Source: a virus
Length of the DNA stretch: 41,841 nucleotides
IMG/VR virus record: IMGVR_UViG_3300032087_003603
Location: 1 to 41,841 of that record
Direction: 5' to 3' (one strand)
Part shown: in pieces, positions 2,703 to 41,585 of the stretch
Layout of the letters: every line of letters begins with the position of its first letter
Position numbering within the stretch: the stretch's first letter is position 1
Notes under the pieces: generated by a model
Told to the model about the DNA's origin: nothing
What the model saw: the letters and a program-made list of their open reading frames with translations, nothing else
Database searches by the model: none
Program-made: the position numbers and the translations under genes

Positions 2703-3218
2703 TTACCCTACCTTTCCGTTGAAGTTCATTGAGTCTATCGGGAACCCGAGGTCCCGCGCCAAACAGTCGCGCATGACGGCTGCCACTAACTCGCTCTTGT
2801 AATTGCTCGTTCTGTGATTCTTGTAGTCTTTCTTAACCTGACCCATCCATCGCTGGCTTTGGCTCACGAAGTGAACTCCGCGATACTTGGAGGTTACATT
2901 TCCCTTCGTTGGCTTGTTGTAACCCCTCAGATTGCCTGCGTGAGTTACGCACCTCAAATTGCCGAGCGAATTATTGTGACCATCTCCGTCTACATGATGT
3001 ATGCACATACCCTTAGGAATGTCGCCATTGAAGGCGCGCCATATTTGTCTATGGACATATTCCCCTGCTCTTTTTCGGTACTTGCCATCACCAGTTTTTG
3101 CGCCCTTGTGAATCATGCCATTTCGCTTTCTCCCCTTGCTCCTCAGCTCGATTAGATAGCCGCTGTCAGTCACCGCGTGTGTATTGCTTATCTGTTTTAC
3201 TCTCATGTCGTGGCTCAT
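2703..3218 (-). CDS. HNH endonuclease with AP2 DNA-binding domain
   Basis: A homing-type endonuclease of 171 residues. The HNH core runs from about 55 to 96 (VHRQIWRAFNG, then IHHVDGDGHNNSLGNLRCVT), with the His-His pair at 74-75 and the closing Asn in GNL. An AP2-type DNA-binding domain follows at about 110-157 (KYRGVHFVSQSQRWMGQV). This pairing is common in free-standing phage homing nucleases. Its ATG overlaps the TGA of the preceding gene, so it is embedded in the early operon rather than carrying its own promoter. All expected HNH residues seem present, so it may be active. Confidence 0.85.
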   Translation of the reverse strand: MSHDMRVKQISNTHAVTDSGYLIELRSKGRKRNGMIHKGAKTGDGKYRKRAGEYVHRQIWRAFNGDIPKGMCIHHVDGDGHNNSLGNLRCVTHAGNLRGYNKPTKGNVTSKYRGVHFVSQSQRWMGQVKKDYKNHRTSNYKSELVAAVMRDCLARDLGFPIDSMNFNGKVG

Positions 3219-3558: not shown

Positions 3559-3765
3559 TTAATAAATGACGTCTTGGGCTTCCATCAGGGCCTGCCTCAC
3601 CCACTCGCAAACCTCCTCAACTGAAGAGAATGTTATCCCGTGCTTGAGTTCAGATCGCATCCGGTTGTCTACATCGCAGATCACCGATACCAGTGTTCGG
3701 GAATCAAGCATCAGGTTAAGTTCGTCTCGCTCCTCTGGGATTTCAAATTCTATCGTTACCGTCAT
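3559..3765 (-). CDS. Hypothetical protein, 68 aa
   Basis: A small acidic protein (begins MTVTIEFEIPEERDELNLML) that I do not recognise. A beta-strand start followed by two helices seems likely. The upstream 20 bases run straight into a palindromic repeat (3785-3813), so that repeat lies in its 5' untranslated region. Stop and next start are 11 bases apart. Confidence 0.6.
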   Translation of the reverse strand: MTVTIEFEIPEERDELNLMLDSRTLVSVICDVDNRMRSELKHGITFSSVEEVCEWVRQALMEAQDVIY

Positions 3766-3784
3766 CTTTCATGGTCTCAGCCAA

Positions 3785-3813
3785 TTGCAGCGTTACAAGG
3801 TAACTAGCGATTG
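3785..3813 (-). repeat. Palindromic repeat, family A, copy 1
   Basis: Plus-strand halves are TTGCAGCGTTACAAG and GTAACTAGCGATTG. The core GTTAC-AAG-GTAAC is a perfect inverted repeat, flanked by GC/GC pairs with a two-base bulge on one side. It is matched over 28 bases at 3889-3916 and, with one or two changes, at 6056-6083. It lies about 20 bases upstream of the ATG at 3765. No T-run follows, so it is not an intrinsic terminator. It may be an operator, an RNA processing hairpin or a small mobile repeat. Confidence 0.85.
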
Positions 3814-3888
3814 CTCTCTATCGTCTTTTGTTATCATAAGTATATTAGTAAAAAAACTGGACAAATTAATGCGGGTTGTTGGCTCAGA

Positions 3889-3916
3889 TTGCAGCGTTAC
3901 AAGGTAACTAGCGATT
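3889..3916 (-). repeat. Palindromic repeat, family A, copy 2
   Basis: This is an exact 28-base match to copy 1, in the same orientation. It lies three bases after the stop codon of the CTERM-tagged gene. The 75 bases between copies 1 and 2 are AT-rich; the minus strand offers only a 14-codon frame there (ATG near 3836), whose stop comes out of the repeat itself. Confidence 0.85.
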
Positions 3917-3919
3917 CAC

Positions 3920-4222
3920 CTATTGGTGATCTGCCTTTTGGTGATTCCAAATTGCCAGTGCTACTAGCACAACGCCCAAGAGCATTATGGTTGCACCACC
4001 GTCAGGCACACTGCACTCCGGCCTGTCGCCTAAGCCATGAGCGGGTGCCCAACATGGAACGTTTTCGTGAGCGTTCCCGTGATTGGGTTGCTCGAATCCG
4101 TAGCGACCGCCGGAGAATAGCCCGCCGTAGTTACCATTAGACCCCTGGAAGTTGCTCTGTATAATATCAAGCTGATAGAATTCGTCTTCCTGCTTGGGTT
4201 TGTGTTCGTTATCTATTCTCAT
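3920..4222 (-). CDS. Small protein with C-terminal VPDSG/PEP-CTERM-type sorting signal
   Basis: A protein of 100 residues. It ends with VPDGG at 72-76, a hydrophobic helix at about 77-92 (ATIMLLGVVLVALAIW) and a short polar tail with one Lys. This is the three-part plan of VPDSG/PEP-CTERM signals, which in bacteria are handled by exosortases in the inner membrane. The tail is less basic than usual, and no N-terminal signal peptide is present, so export would be atypical. The body is Gly/Asn-rich with two Cys just before the signal. I chose the ATG at 4220-4222 because it overlaps the stop region of a tiny membrane gene; a TTG at 4279 would add 19 residues. Known hosts of this tag are mainly Verrucomicrobiota; the function here is unknown. 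Confidence 0.65.
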   Translation of the reverse strand: MRIDNEHKPKQEDEFYQLDIIQSNFQGSNGNYGGLFSGGRYGFEQPNHGNAHENVPCWAPAHGLGDRPECSVPDGGATIMLLGVVLVALAIWNHQKADHQ

Positions 4223-4322
4223 GGTTTGCTGGTCTCTCAGTTTCCTTGTAAGCTCTTTCAAATTTAGCCAGAAACTCAATTACGATTATCGTTCCGAGGA
4301 TTATTAGTATAATTTCCATCAT
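4209..4322 (-). CDS. Tiny membrane protein, 37 aa
   Basis: This short frame starts MMEIILIILGTIIVIEFLAK and ends with a charged tail (FERAYKETERPANHENR). It is a single hydrophobic helix followed by a cytosolic or periplasmic polar tail. AAGGA lies about 11 bases before the first of two adjacent ATGs. Its stop overlaps the start of the CTERM-tagged gene by 14 bases, so the two are probably co-translated. A membrane partner for that protein is a natural guess. I do not recognise it. Confidence 0.5.
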   Translation of the reverse strand: MMEIILIILGTIIVIEFLAKFERAYKETERPANHENR

Positions 4323-4344: not shown

Positions 4345-4674
4345 TTACGGGTAATCAATATGGTTTTCTTTCTTCTCTTTAATCATTGCTAAAGCGATTG
4401 TGCAGTACCCGATAATATCCTCGAAGGCATCCTCAACGTGCTCATCTTCCACGGCTAAGGATTTAGTTTTGCAGAACGTCTGCACTCTCTTTATCTTGTC
4501 CCCCATTCGGACGCACAGTCCAACAAGAGGATCTACTCCGTACTCCCTAGCTTGCTCAAAGTTAGCGAAAGCAGAAGTGCTCATTGCGGTGTAGTCGTTG
4601 TTCTTGTCCTTTAGAACATTAGACATCTTGGCGAACAAAGCCTTAGTAAACTCTTCAAATTTTTCTTTTATCAT
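4345..4674 (-). CDS. Nmad1/DUF1599 (MazG-like) family protein
   Basis: A helical protein of 109 residues. The stretch KDKNNDYTAMSTSAFANFEQA, the RMGDKIKRVQ helix and the acidic EDEHVEDAFEDIIGY segment fit the DUF1599 family, also called nucleotide modification associated domain 1, an all-helical fold related to MazG nucleotide pyrophosphohydrolases. Members are common in phages and may act on nucleotides. The start overlaps the phosphoesterase stop as ATGA. The assignment rests on pattern recognition of the spaced NDY, RxxDKxxR and ExxxDxxxD motifs and is moderate. Confidence 0.5.
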   Translation of the reverse strand: MIKEKFEEFTKALFAKMSNVLKDKNNDYTAMSTSAFANFEQAREYGVDPLVGLCVRMGDKIKRVQTFCKTKSLAVEDEHVEDAFEDIIGYCTIALAMIKEKKENHIDYP

Positions 4675-5318
4675 AATTCCATTAAATAATTAGTAGCCAC
4701 CTTGCCATGCTCGACCACACCACACCCGATGGCTGGGTGCGGCCCATGCTTACCGTAGGCCATTGCATAAGAGTCCTTGTCGATCCCATTGCCCACCTGC
4801 ATTCCAAACACCTTACACTTGGCCCCTGTGTGCCATTGCACGTAGCACTCCGAGTGCCAGTGACCCTGAACCACGCTCTGCATGTCCTGCTTGGCTCGCT
4901 GGATCGCCTTCTTGCCGTCCCCGTGGCAGTAAACCACGTTGTCAATACAGACCGACTCAACAAACTTCCAACCAGGTGCCTCGAACATTTCATTGTAGTC
5001 CCTAACCCATCTTTTGGATATACCAGCACTGTATGCCTTGCGGTGCACTAGTCGGTCATGGTTGCCGATGCAAACGTGTGCTTGGGGAAATGCCTTGTAC
5101 CATTTCTGTATCTCGGAGATCGCCCTGTCTAGCTCGTCGCCAGCACTAAATCCATCTGGGTCCGTCTCATGGTAGGAGCTGTAGTGGTTATCAATAACAT
5201 CTCCGATAAACACTACCTCGTTGCAGGCCAGCTTGCGGTCCACGTTCTTGCAGAACCTCAAATACTTCTTGAGGGTAAATGGACAATGCAGGTCCCCGAT
5301 TATTAAGACTCTCGACAT
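4671..5318 (-). CDS. Calcineurin-like metallophosphoesterase
   Basis: A 215-residue dimetal phosphoesterase. All five metal-binding blocks are visible: GDLH with Asp9 and His11, GDVID at 39-43, GNHD at 85-88, His132 in YCHGDG, and GHWH at 152-155. The fold can act on phosphodiesters or protein phosphates; the substrate cannot be read from the sequence. Phage members are often encoded beside replication or nucleotide genes, as here with the Nmad1-like gene, to which it is coupled through an ATGA overlap. Confidence 0.85.
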   Translation of the reverse strand: MSRVLIIGDLHCPFTLKKYLRFCKNVDRKLACNEVVFIGDVIDNHYSSYHETDPDGFSAGDELDRAISEIQKWYKAFPQAHVCIGNHDRLVHRKAYSAGISKRWVRDYNEMFEAPGWKFVESVCIDNVVYCHGDGKKAIQRAKQDMQSVVQGHWHSECYVQWHTGAKCKVFGMQVGNGIDKDSYAMAYGKHGPHPAIGCGVVEHGKVATNYLMEL

Positions 5319-6034: not shown

Positions 6035-6055
6035 CCCGGCTTCCTTTGTCATTGA

Positions 6056-6083
6056 TGCAGCGTTACAGGGTAACTAGCGATTG
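6056..6083 (-). repeat. Palindromic repeat, family A, copy 3
   Basis: This matches copies 1 and 2 except that the loop reads AGG in place of AAG, and its outermost base differs; the arms GTTAC and GTAAC are kept. Its left arm contains the stop codon (TAG at 6074-6076) of the gene 6074-6469, and it ends just before the sigma-like gene. As in copy 2, the repeat starts at or right after a stop codon. Confidence 0.8.
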
Positions 6084-8473: not shown

Positions 8474-8524
8474 AATCGCTAGTTACTTCGCTAAGCTCGT
8501 CTTAGTTACTGCGTAACGCTGCAA
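8474..8524 (+). repeat. Compound palindromic repeat, family A, copy 4 (inverted and expanded)
   Basis: It starts with AATCGCTAGTTAC and ends with GTAACGCTGCAA, the two arms of family A, but reads in the opposite orientation to copies 1-3. Between them are 26 extra bases that include a second TAGTTAC, so that TAGTTAC-TGC-GTAAC recreates the hairpin core. It looks like a partially duplicated or rearranged copy. Confidence 0.65.
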
Positions 8525-10104: not shown

Positions 10105-10168
10105 CACCCCAAAAGCCCGCGTCTCCTTAGAGATAGCGAGCGATTGAGAGTGATCGGGAAAGGGGTTA
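10105..10168 (-). repeat. Intercistronic stem-loop element, family B, copy 4
   Basis: On the plus strand it begins CACCCCAAAAGCCCGCGTCT and ends GGGAAAGGGGTTAA. Inner arms GCCCGC and GCGAGC pair in the minus-strand RNA with one U-G; a TCTC/GAGA stem caps it. The outer ACCCC and GGGGT can pair as a base stem. It sits 11 bases after the stop of the gene at 10180 and 32 bases before the next ATG. It is nearly identical to copies at 11749-11810 and 12109-12172. Confidence 0.8.
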
Positions 10169-11748: not shown

Positions 11749-11810
11749 CACCCCCAAAGCTCGCGTCTCCTAGGAGATAGCGAGCCGTTGAGAGTGATTG
11801 GAAGGGGTTT
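11749..11810 (-). repeat. Intercistronic stem-loop element, family B, copy 2
   Basis: Compared with copies 1 and 4, this copy has GCTCGC opposite GCGAGC (fully Watson-Crick instead of one wobble pair) and TCTCCTAGGAGA (perfect palindrome) in place of TCTCCTTAGAGA. The changes keep or improve pairing, which argues for selection on RNA structure. It touches the stop of the gene at 11809. Confidence 0.8.
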
Positions 11811-12108: not shown

Positions 12109-12172
12109 CACCCCAAAAGCCCGCGTCTCCTTAGAGATAGCGAGCGATTGAGAAGATTGGGAAAAGGTTTAG
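12109..12172 (-). repeat. Intercistronic stem-loop element, family B, copy 1
   Basis: On the plus strand it begins CACCCCAAAAGCCCGCGTCT and ends GGGAAAAGGTTTA. It directly follows the stop of the gene at 12173. The minus-strand RNA would expose or hide the sequence UAAGGAG in the loop and upper stem. Confidence 0.8.
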
Positions 12173-13613: not shown

Positions 13614-13642
13614 TTGACTTGTGAGCCGGTTTCTGTTATAAT
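13614..13642 (+). promoter_or_regulatory. Late promoter 1, sigma-70 type
   Basis: TTGACT, 17 bases, TATAAT. The -35 box overlaps no gene. The transcript would start near 13649, giving a leader of about 13 nt before the HNH gene. It drives the terminase block. Confidence 0.75.
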
Positions 13643-13661
13643 GCTTTCTGCATTAAATAAT

Positions 13662-14279
13662 ATGGAATTGCGTCACTACACTTTCAAGCAGGTTATTAAC
13701 CTAAAAAAGCAAACCAGTCTTCCAAGGGGAACATTTAAAAATGGCGACAAGCATCCGTGGCTCCCCGGTTTGTACTATAGGGAGTATGGGGATGAGAAGG
13801 AGATTTGGACCCAAAATCCAAACGCCTCAAGGAGAGTCTCCCCCAGAAAGCAGAAACCATTGACCCAGGAGCTTCGAGACCGGAAGAGGGAGTACAACAA
13901 AAAATACCAACGAGAAAACAGGGAGCAAATTGCTGCCCAATCAAAAAGACGGTGGGAAGTCAATGGCAAGGATTATCTTAAAAAAAGACAAGAGAGGCAT
14001 GGGGCTAAGCTGGCTGCTGAGGCAAGCGAAAAACGTGCTGCTAAACATTCTGACATCAAAGAATTGTCACCGAATGAGAACTTAATGGTAAATCACTATT
14101 ACAAGTCTTGCAACAGGTTGAATAAAATCTTCGGCGGTACGGTGTGGCACGTAGATCACACTGTCCCCCTGAGCCTTGGCGGGAAACATCACCCATCAAA
14201 TCTTCAAGTAGTTCCGGCTAAGTGGAACCTTAAGAAGAATAAATTTCACAGCAAGGAATGGGAGGTTCCCTTCGTATGA
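13662..14279 (+). CDS. HNH endonuclease, paralogue of 22335-22886
   Basis: A basic protein of 205 residues. The C-terminal part holds the nuclease core VDHTVPLSLGGKHHPSNLQVVP and ends with WEVPFV. The same C-terminal block recurs in the protein at 22335-22886 with conservative changes. The middle is very rich in Lys, Arg and Glu (likely a helical DNA-binding arm). I start at the ATG at 13662, which lies just after the promoter; upstream frames fall inside the promoter boxes. It is the first gene of the late arm and is coupled to the next gene by ATGA. Confidence 0.8.
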   Translation: MELRHYTFKQVINLKKQTSLPRGTFKNGDKHPWLPGLYYREYGDEKEIWTQNPNASRRVSPRKQKPLTQELRDRKREYNKKYQRENREQIAAQSKRRWEVNGKDYLKKRQERHGAKLAAEASEKRAAKHSDIKELSPNENLMVNHYYKSCNRLNKIFGGTVWHVDHTVPLSLGGKHHPSNLQVVPAKWNLKKNKFHSKEWEVPFV

Positions 14280-22334: not shown

Positions 22335-22886
22335 ATGACAAAGGAAGAAAGAAGAGAATACGCAAGGATTGTCAGGCTGGCATTCAAGGACGACCCAGAA
22401 TACCAGACCCAAACAAGAGAGTACGCAAGAACTTACCGCTTGGCAATGAAGGACGATCCAGAGCATAAGGCAAAGGAAAAGGCCCGTGCTCGTCGACGCT
22501 ACCTAGAAAAGAAACAAGATCCAGAGTGGTACGCAGGGCTTTGCGAGCGAAGAGACAAGTGGAGAGAAAATAATCCAGAGAGGGCTTTGGCGATTATGAA
22601 AAACACTAACGCCAGAAGACGTGAACAAAAACTGGGCTCCATTTCAGAGCTAACCAATGAGCAAGTCGGTGAGATTCGTGGCATATACCTTCAATGCGAC
22701 CGACTAAACGGCATCTTTGGTGAGCAGGTCTTTGAGGTGGATCACACGGTACCACTGTCCAAGGGAGGCAAGCACCACCCAAATAATTTACAAATAGTTC
22801 CAAGATCATGGAACAGAGAGAAAAGAAACAATCACTCAGAAAGATGGGAAGTCCCATTCGCAAACATTAAAATATCAATCCGCTAG
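22335..22886 (+). CDS. HNH endonuclease, boxed by terminators
   Basis: A basic 183-residue protein. A tandem repeat opens it (EYARIVRLAFKDDPEYQ, then EYARTYRLAMKDDPEHK). The C-terminal nuclease core is VDHTVPLSKGGKHHPNNLQIVP, followed by WEVPFAN. It is a paralogue of 13662-14279. It sits between the capsid and tail genes, with a UUCG-loop terminator on either side, so it looks like an inserted homing cassette. No promoter of its own is obvious. Confidence 0.8.
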   Translation: MTKEERREYARIVRLAFKDDPEYQTQTREYARTYRLAMKDDPEHKAKEKARARRRYLEKKQDPEWYAGLCERRDKWRENNPERALAIMKNTNARRREQKLGSISELTNEQVGEIRGIYLQCDRLNGIFGEQVFEVDHTVPLSKGGKHHPNNLQIVPRSWNREKRNNHSERWEVPFANIKISIR

Positions 22887-38881: not shown

Positions 38882-41151
38882 GCGTATCATCAGAACTTTA
38901 TAAAGTAAATGTGGTTGGCGACGGGTCAACCCCCTCCATTGCATTCAATCGCAAGGTCTTTAACTCAACCGACATCAAGGGGTTTAGTTACGACACCACC
39001 ACAAATGTCGAGACAGCGTTAGTAAATGGGACTGATTTTACCGTGACGGGGGCCGGAAACACCTCCTCTAGTGTTACCATTACCCCTACGTCATCCATCG
39101 CTACAGGCACTAACTGGGTACTTTACTCCGATGCTGGCAATGCCCAGGGCACAACACTGACAACGGCTGGAGAGTTTCCCGCCAAGTCGCTGGAGTATGC
39201 GTTCGACAAGTTGGCTATTGGCACACAGGAGGCAGACGGTAAGGCTGATCGGGCATTGAAGCTGCCAATTAGCGACACAGCGTCCACGGAGATCCCTAAC
39301 GCCACGGACAGAGCCAGCAAGGTTTTGGGATTTGATGCTAACGGTGCGATCCAAGCAGTTACTGCCAGTGCTTTAACTCCAGAGTACAAGTCGGTAACGG
39401 ACTTTGGTGCTGTTGGTGACGGCGTAACAGACGATACGGCTGCATTGCAAGGAGCATTAGATAGCAATGCCCTAGTCATAATGCCAGCAGGCAAATACCG
39501 CACCACAGCAAACCTTGTCATAGACCCCATACGCAATCGCAATTGTGGGTTTATTGGGTCTGTGTCACCATCTATTTATCCTGCAACTCAGCAAACTGGT
39601 GGTCCTGCCTGGGACGGCACCAAGGAGTGTCAGATATTTTATGATGGTTCTACCGGATCAACCACTGCGGTAATTGCAATCAGTGCTGAGGCAGTGGGAA
39701 CGGAGCCATCCTCTACTTTTGAAAACTCCATTTGGGGCGTTCGATTTGAAAACATCACTTTCAATGGCAACGACAAGGCCCAATACGGCTTTTACGCCGC
39801 CCGTTTGCAGCAACCGTATGTTGCTAATTGCGTAGCTAGGCAGTGCGAGGGCGATGGCTGGTACATCAATGGCAGCTACTCTGGAATGTTTGTGAACATT
39901 ATGGCCCGCCTAAATGGAGGCCGGGGCATTTCCATTGGCGCCGCTGCTGAAGACCTTGGCTGGACCACAAACAATAAATTAAACGGCGTGCTGTTTAGCA
40001 ACCTTTGGGCATACGCGAATGGTGGAGATAAACTATTTGACGACACAGAGGTTACGGACACCGCCCAAGCTGGGGCAAGCACAACGATTACTTTGGCCGC
40101 TGGCGCCTCTGCAAGCGATGACATCTACAATGATTGGGCAATAGAAATTACTTCTGGCACTGGATCGGGGCAGTATCGCACAATCACTGACTACAATGGC
40201 ACGACCAAGGTAGCTACCGTCTTGTCGGCGTGGGACACAAACCCGGACGCAACATCCGTTTACAGAATCTATGCCACCAACAAGGGATGTGGAGTGTACT
40301 TTAGACCCCACCGCAGTTGCAAGATCGACAGGGTTACTTCGGAATTGAACGATGGAGCGGGTATTGTCTTTGCCCCCACTAGCAGTGGAAATGTCATCCA
40401 TTCCGTTTACACCGAGTTAAACTCTGATTATGAGGTTGGAGGCACAGACGCCATAGATGATTCGCGTGCCGCTAAATCCTATGGAATACGCTTTGAGGGG
40501 ATTGCTTCGGGCGTCTCTTATGGGAACTCGGTTGAACACGGTTTCCTGAGCTCCGAGGAGTTGTGGATTCAGGGGATCGAGCCCACTTCCGCTAGGGTGG
40601 AATCAGCGGTTGAGTTCAAGAATCTGCTGGGTGGATCTGGGGTGGCTTCCGCTTGGGACAACTACCGCCTGATTAACTGCGCCGATGAGTTTATTGACAA
40701 CGTTACCGGAACGAACCCAGGATCGTCTTGGATTGTTAATTCCGACAGAGAAGGGAACTTCACCCCCACCCTTGAGGGCTCTGGCACCGCTGGAACAGGC
40801 TGGGGATATGACATAAACATCGGCTCCTATACTCGAATAGGCAAGTGGGTCTTCTTCAACCTTCGCATTGACCTTAACACTATTGGCTCAGGTGCGGCAG
40901 GCAGCGTGCTTATAAAGAATTTGCCATTCTCAATCAGGAACAGCAATGACAGTCAAACTGCATTCACTATTTCTAACGTTCAGAACATGACCACTAGCAC
41001 GGTTTTCGCCTCTGCTGCTGGTGTCATCAACACGTCGGAAATAGCTATTTACCACAAGACCGCAGCCGCTGCCAGCGAGTCTCAGACGCAAATCTCAGAC
41101 ATATCAGCTACAACCACGTTCAACATAAACGGGTTCTACCGGACCGCTTAG
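38878..41151 (+). CDS. Tailspike with T7-fibre-like anchor and pectate lyase-like domain
   Basis: A 757-residue receptor protein. Residues 1 to about 155 (SSELYKVNVVGDGSTPSIAF; LEYAFDKLAIGTQEADGKAD) match the virion-anchoring N-terminus of T7-type tail fibres. DFGAVGDGVTDDTAALQGAL near 172-191 is the classic start of the Pectate_lyase_3 beta-helix, so a polysaccharide-degrading spike is likely. A different beta module (about 390-465) interrupts the helix. The last 130 residues form a compact C-terminal domain (YTRIGKWVFFNLRI). It is the last late gene; its stop overlaps the converging HNH gene. Confidence 0.82.
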   Translation: MSVSSELYKVNVVGDGSTPSIAFNRKVFNSTDIKGFSYDTTTNVETALVNGTDFTVTGAGNTSSSVTITPTSSIATGTNWVLYSDAGNAQGTTLTTAGEFPAKSLEYAFDKLAIGTQEADGKADRALKLPISDTASTEIPNATDRASKVLGFDANGAIQAVTASALTPEYKSVTDFGAVGDGVTDDTAALQGALDSNALVIMPAGKYRTTANLVIDPIRNRNCGFIGSVSPSIYPATQQTGGPAWDGTKECQIFYDGSTGSTTAVIAISAEAVGTEPSSTFENSIWGVRFENITFNGNDKAQYGFYAARLQQPYVANCVARQCEGDGWYINGSYSGMFVNIMARLNGGRGISIGAAAEDLGWTTNNKLNGVLFSNLWAYANGGDKLFDDTEVTDTAQAGASTTITLAAGASASDDIYNDWAIEITSGTGSGQYRTITDYNGTTKVATVLSAWDTNPDATSVYRIYATNKGCGVYFRPHRSCKIDRVTSELNDGAGIVFAPTSSGNVIHSVYTELNSDYEVGGTDAIDDSRAAKSYGIRFEGIASGVSYGNSVEHGFLSSEELWIQGIEPTSARVESAVEFKNLLGGSGVASAWDNYRLINCADEFIDNVTGTNPGSSWIVNSDREGNFTPTLEGSGTAGTGWGYDINIGSYTRIGKWVFFNLRIDLNTIGSGAAGSVLIKNLPFSIRNSNDSQTAFTISNVQNMTTSTVFASAAGVINTSEIAIYHKTAAAASESQTQISDISATTTFNINGFYRTA

Positions 41152-41585
41152 CCGTGTGCGTCTGACCAGTCGCCCGGTGTTGGGTGTTCCCTTGTAGCTT
41201 TCCTCAGTGCTCTCTCGTCTGCTGTCTTTTGGGCATGACATTCGGAGCAGATTGCCTGGAACCCATCTAGCTCGCAGTAGAGCCGCTGTATTAGTTCGTT
41301 CCAGTTATAATCGAGATGTTTTTCTCCAGTGAACCCGTCAACAGGGACCACAGGAGATATGTGGTCAGCAACCATTTGAGATTGTGGAAACAGATTGCCG
41401 CACTGGTTGCAGCGATGCAGCTTACACTTGCGGCCAGTTTGCGGGTTGATTCCGTCTTCGACATAGGCATCCTTGATTGCTTGGTATTTGACTGGCCAAC
41501 GGGCTTTGCGTAAAGCGGACATGACAAAGCTCCTCATGCGAGCAGTGGTCCAAGTGTTTGAATTAAAAGATTTAGGTTTCTTCAT
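41148..41585 (-). CDS. HNH endonuclease with zinc-binding Cys pairs
   Basis: A 145-residue protein. CNQCG (59-63) and CSECH (113-117) form two Cys pairs around an HNH core with VADHISPVV (His75). The pattern is that of HNH nucleases often encoded beside phage replication genes. It is the last gene of the E2 transcript after the junction. Its stop and that of the tailspike overlap on opposite strands (41148-41151). The leader is A/C-rich (AAAAACAAACAC then ATG). Confidence 0.8.
   Translation of the reverse strand: MKKPKSFNSNTWTTARMRSFVMSALRKARWPVKYQAIKDAYVEDGINPQTGRKCKLHRCNQCGNLFPQSQMVADHISPVVPVDGFTGEKHLDYNWNELIQRLYCELDGFQAICSECHAQKTADERALRKATREHPTPGDWSDAHG

Follow-up and report, generated by a model that had tools for sequence, protein, structure and literature searches.

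The question raised by this locus is why the gene of a phage should end in a sorting tag which in bacteria directs proteins to exosortase. The window, i.e. the whole stretch of DNA analysed, is the 41,841 nucleotide viral record IMGVR_UViG_3300032087_003603, and the gene concerned (P0001) lies on its minus strand at 3920..4222, with an ATG at 4222 and the stop at 3920. It encodes a 100 amino acid protein of 71 polar residues followed by a VPDSG-CTERM-like tail, the last 29 residues being VPDGGATIMLLGVVLVALAIWNHQKADHQ. The motif VPDGG occupies residues 72-76 and is followed by a hydrophobic helix and by the polar C-terminal end NHQKADHQ (3920..3946 on the minus strand, stop included). This is the arrangement on a small phage protein described in the earlier note; of its details, the helix is nearer to 17-18 residues than to the 16 given there, and the end, termed weakly basic, is indeed polar but carries one Lys, one Asp and two His and is not a basic cluster. 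The helix reaches a maximum Kyte-Doolittle value of 2.48 (17-residue window), and a helix at residues 75-98 is the sole confident part of a single-sequence AlphaFold2 prediction. The P0001 frame is the only one of the six without stops and ranks first when scored by the codon usage of this phage's genes (0.172 per codon, versus -0.071 or lower elsewhere), a value comparable to that of neighbouring small genes; on the plus strand the reading frame at 3920..4222 is interrupted by stops. The position of the gene on the minus strand among replication genes suggests early expression.

Both curated models of the tag recognise the tail. TIGR03778 (VPDSG-CTERM) scores 27.0 bits on P0001 (E 3.5e-6 for the library; curated cut-off 22) and aligns its positions 1-22 of 24 to VPDGG and the transmembrane helix (3944..4009, minus strand), while PF18205 (VPDSG-CTERM) gives 27.2 bits with a curated cut-off of 25; a search with CTERM models was the test which had been set beforehand, and it turned out positive. 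In a six-frame search with TIGR03778 the window was positive at 28.7 bits and none of fourteen control genomes at E 0.001. A home-made profile of host tails gave 31.7 bits for the P0001 tail, no other of the 19,655 ORFs in the window and in related phage contigs exceeding 5.6 bits, and this score was equalled by none of 40,000 shuffles (maxima of 9.2 bits when the C-terminal part was shuffled 20,000 times and of 26.3 bits when only the motif region was, again 20,000 times). This profile is partly circular, since 17 of its tails were retrieved by a pattern derived from the P0001 tail; TIGR03778 and PF18205 are not. Judged on sequence, the match of the tail is real and specific.

A search of 84,980 species genomes for VPDGGAT--LLG gave 17 matches, all of them in frame and C-terminal, at 25-28 residues before the stop (29 in P0001), and most of these proteins have a signal peptide in front. 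The carriers are genomes assembled from metagenomes, thirteen named Verrucomicrobia (Chthoniobacterales and Udaeobacter included) and four Acidobacteria, with no other group, which agrees with the earlier note's statement that the tag is known mainly from Verrucomicrobiota and related groups. In the phylum of one carrier, 18 of 388 genomes have VPDSG-CTERM, and an exosortase (PF09721) is present in each of the three VPDSG-bearing genomes that were tested. The closest sampled verrucomicrobial tail is only 59-64% identical to that of P0001. In one verrucomicrobial genome (L178) P0001 matches a genuine client by the tail only; its other weak matches in verrucomicrobial genomes look like chance.

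P0001 has no match in PHROGs, PADLOC and PDB, the part before the tail is also unmatched in Pfam, and no relative is found in annotated phage genomes. A search of the viral collection listed a single relative (L002), which was rejected as a chance match within a 2027 amino acid tape-measure-like protein. Homology confined to the tail is usual in the PEP-CTERM/EpsH exosortase system (PMC1569441), with which P0001 shares the order of motif and helix at the extreme C-terminus, and with VPDSG-CTERM proteins it shares the VPDGG, the helix, the C-terminal position and scores above the curated cut-offs. In distinction to both, it is encoded by a phage and has neither signal peptide nor basic cluster; model positions 23-24 are unmatched, no exosortase is encoded in the phage record, and the gene sits among phage replication genes in place of a single-gene operon.

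A signal peptide is present in 97% of PEP-CTERM proteins (PMC1569441), and a basic cluster follows the helix in exosortase clients (PMC1569441; PMC3237569). No signal peptide is visible in P0001 by hydropathy, the only measure used for this call: residues 1-70 have no hydrophobic stretch (best 12-residue mean 0.21), and the same is true from an upstream TTG start, in line with the absence already noted before. The 26 host tails examined have two to five K/R each, that of P0001 a single Lys. As both features are lacking, P0001 is filed as a protein that carries a VPDSG-CTERM-like tag and not as a proven client. Ahead of the helix there are 5 K/R versus 10 D/E, a charge balance which allows an N-out, C-in orientation but does not prove it. 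With no basic cluster the inverse, tail-anchored topology is also possible, in which the motif would be cytoplasmic and hidden from exosortase.

Upstream on the same strand, the start of P0001 is overlapped by 14 nt by the gene of a 37 amino acid membrane protein (4209..4322, minus strand) with one helix and a basic C-terminus. The overlap, already pointed out in the earlier note, suggests translational coupling. A frameshift fusion of the two, which would add an N-terminal helix to P0001, was rejected, as it needs a +1 shift and there is no evident slippery site. Further upstream are a conserved phage gene (4345..4674, minus strand; phrog_1485, NMAD1/DUF1599), which borders the slot of the two small genes, and a metallophosphoesterase (4671..5318, minus strand); downstream of P0001 there are small genes, an HNH endonuclease, an exonuclease and a Dda-like helicase. 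The terminase is common to fifteen contigs at 81-87% and the neighbouring genes to about 100 loci, and in none of these is found P0001, its N-terminal part, the 37 amino acid protein or a VPDSG tail. A version of the gene without VPDGG was looked for in related phages, all of which turned out to lack the gene altogether. A gene of 102-103 amino acids, which looks like a relative of a 110 amino acid gene of the window, comes directly after the conserved gene in the closest relatives (L019-L021, with the phosphoesterase at 94-96%), and in L130 the slot holds a different 66 amino acid gene. As P0001 and its partner are absent from relatives and the content of the slot differs, the pair constitutes an accessory cassette.

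Other viral contigs carry sorting tags too. The 46 kb contig IMGVR_UViG_3300009678_000075 (L184/L305/L309/L313), unrelated to the window phage and with a DnaB-like helicase and other phage-type genes, has two ORFs with a C-terminal VPDSG-CTERM tag. One is a VPDGG client with signal peptide (25.8 bits). The other is a 33 amino acid ORF, MVATSFQRCVPDSGATLILLGMGLCGLAVIRRS (39.4 bits), whose stop overlaps the next start and which could be the remnant of a longer gene; by eye, a further short ORF can be seen to overlap it in another frame. Like P0001, the 33 amino acid protein is small, encoded on a phage contig, without signal peptide and ends in a VPDSG tail; it differs in being almost tag only, in its basic end (RRS), in the higher score and in belonging to an unrelated phage. 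Both proteins carry a Cys at most two residues ahead of the motif, which sets them apart from the genome tails listed. The presence of tags in two unrelated phages implies that the VPDSG tag entered phage genomes more than once, and once nearly bare. Annotated phage genomes contain no relative of the 33 amino acid ORF, of the second phage's full VPDGG client or of the two VPEP proteins tried. The VPEP type of PEP-CTERM is more frequent than the VPDSG type on contigs classed as viral, with at least 120 matches, and the 80 loci fetched (L185-L264) contain about 70 C-terminal VPEP tags, most of them on proteins that have a signal peptide as judged by a rough hydropathy criterion. These proteins are similar to P0001 in having a C-terminal sorting tag on a viral-classed contig and differ by the PEP motif and, in most cases, by signal peptide and basic end; some of the contigs may be bacterial DNA. 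Three of them (L193, L209 and L228, 55-103 kb) share a 144 amino acid protein in which a VPEP tail is combined with an N-terminal helix. In the literature searched (open-access papers) no description of a phage-encoded VPDSG-CTERM protein was found.

As regards the host, the nearest portal and capsid proteins are those of Pelagibacter and other marine podoviruses (22-35%), and the structural genes resemble those of Pelagibacter and Vibrio phages. The terminase is nearest to Burkholderia phages (34%), with verrucomicrobial prophage-like copies equally near; terminase relatives in 32 of 376 Verrucomicrobiota genomes (about 29-42%) were discarded as a host clue, as they do not discriminate against proteobacterial phages (34-35%). 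The phosphoesterase is 54-61% identical to flavobacterial phage proteins and has no match in the 376 Verrucomicrobiota. A flavobacterial-like phosphoesterase together with Pelagibacter/Vibrio-like structural genes indicates mosaic ancestry. From the kinships of its genes the phage is probably marine, and the tag is the sole pointer to a host in Verrucomicrobiota or Acidobacteria.

The single most likely reading, to which we give a probability of roughly 0.4, is that P0001 is an accessory (moron-like) membrane protein whose exosortase-recognition tail engages the host exosortase as an odd client or as a decoy; that of a plain borrowed anchor stands close behind. Topology, recognition, cleavage, effect on the host and identity of the host are here our own reconstruction. 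The C-terminal helix would enter the inner membrane as a late signal-anchor, and the acidic 71-residue N-terminal part would reach the periplasm without a signal peptide, like some N-out membrane proteins. VPDGG would thereby be exposed at the periplasmic face to the host exosortase, which might cut P0001 and free the N-terminal part to the envelope, or might be occupied by it as by a decoy. Engagement is supported by the two curated models, the shuffles and the uniqueness among the ORFs of the window and its relatives, by the motif being always a C-terminal tag in Verrucomicrobiota and Acidobacteria with exosortase in each genome tested, by the tags of the second phage contig and by a charge balance permitting N-out. 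It is weakened by the missing signal peptide and basic cluster and by the nearest phages, which infect Pelagibacter and Vibrio by structural genes and are flavobacterial by the phosphoesterase; moreover P0001 has no homologues, so that there is no sign of selection on the motif. The interpretation in the earlier note is supported as regards the tag; that the phage taps or blocks the exosortase route is a conjecture, given the missing client features, no exosortase of the phage's own and structural genes that do not point to Verrucomicrobiota. The borrowed anchor, also plausible but somewhat less so, supposes an illegitimate recombination which fused a phage gene to the 3' end of a host VPDSG-CTERM gene, the acquired end now serving only as an N-in tail anchor for which motif and exosortase are irrelevant. 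It accounts for the lack of signal peptide and basic cluster and for a tail which retains the front of the model and in which exactly the basic end is missing, and a cassette missing from all related phages was probably gained recently; however, the motif is almost perfect (VPDGGATIMLLG) though nothing would preserve it, and with the best verrucomicrobial tail at its present distance the capture was not very recent or the donor is unsampled.

A narrower form of the engagement reading, in which P0001, perhaps with its 37 amino acid partner, is a full client that is exported, cut by exosortase and displayed at the surface, e.g. for phage exclusion, appears unlikely. The tag itself, the charge balance and the complete clients with signal peptides on other contigs of the viral collection speak for it, but an N-tail of 71 residues, strongly charged at its N-terminus, would have to be translocated, there is no signal peptide to help it across, and the remainder of the protein has neither a match in the databases searched nor a confident structure. 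That a phage C-terminal helix merely happens to follow VPDGG is very improbable. In 2.9 million viral contigs there are 12 stretches with VPDxGxTxxLLG and 24 with VPDGG--LLG, and about 18 distinct matches of the latter are not tags but chance occurrences in other reading frames of viral DNA; in so huge a collection a C-terminal VPDGG tag is found only in P0001 and a few other ORFs, the true tags among the pattern matches being those of a protein with signal peptide that is encoded on each of three contigs (L133, L134 and L136) and of the two ORFs of IMGVR_UViG_3300009678_000075. Such chance matches are nevertheless unlike tags, the nearest of them, a VPDGG ORF, reaching 15.6 bits with TIGR03778, under the cut-off, whereas the P0001 tail also has Thr at position 7, LLG at 10-12, the right distance to the stop and a score not reached by shuffling. 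A general extension of the engagement reading, that phages of exosortase bearers make small signal-less tagged proteins which occupy or misdirect the enzyme in the course of infection as an anti-exosortase decoy, as here and with the near-bare tag of the unrelated phage, is speculative and rather improbable. In environmental bacteria, surface and biofilm proteins pass through exosortase sorting. Should the tag be functional, this sorting is exploited or blocked by phages, and P0001 would provide a probe, made by a phage, for an enzyme that is poorly understood, as well as a hint to the host of an uncultured phage group.

Some further elements of the window deserve mention. HNH-type endonuclease-like genes, possibly homing endonucleases, are present at 2703-3218, 13614-14279, 22335-22886 and 41148-41585, the first and third by Pfam matches, the last by a match below cut-off and that at 13614 by look only. 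Three nt past the P0001 stop there is a 29-nt intergenic repeat (3888..3916, minus strand) with the palindrome GTTACNNNGTAAC, and an identical second copy (3784..3812, minus strand) lies upstream of the next minus-strand gene (3765..3559). Further copies are found at 6054-6082 (90%) and, inverted and partial, at 8474-8524. The copies sit before or between minus-strand genes, and the repeat possibly serves this phage as operator or promoter; the palindrome with its flanks is absent from the related loci fetched. Finally, a 59-nt repeat occurs in three copies 83-90% alike (10105-10163, 11749-11807 and 12109-12167) within a region of minus-strand genes.
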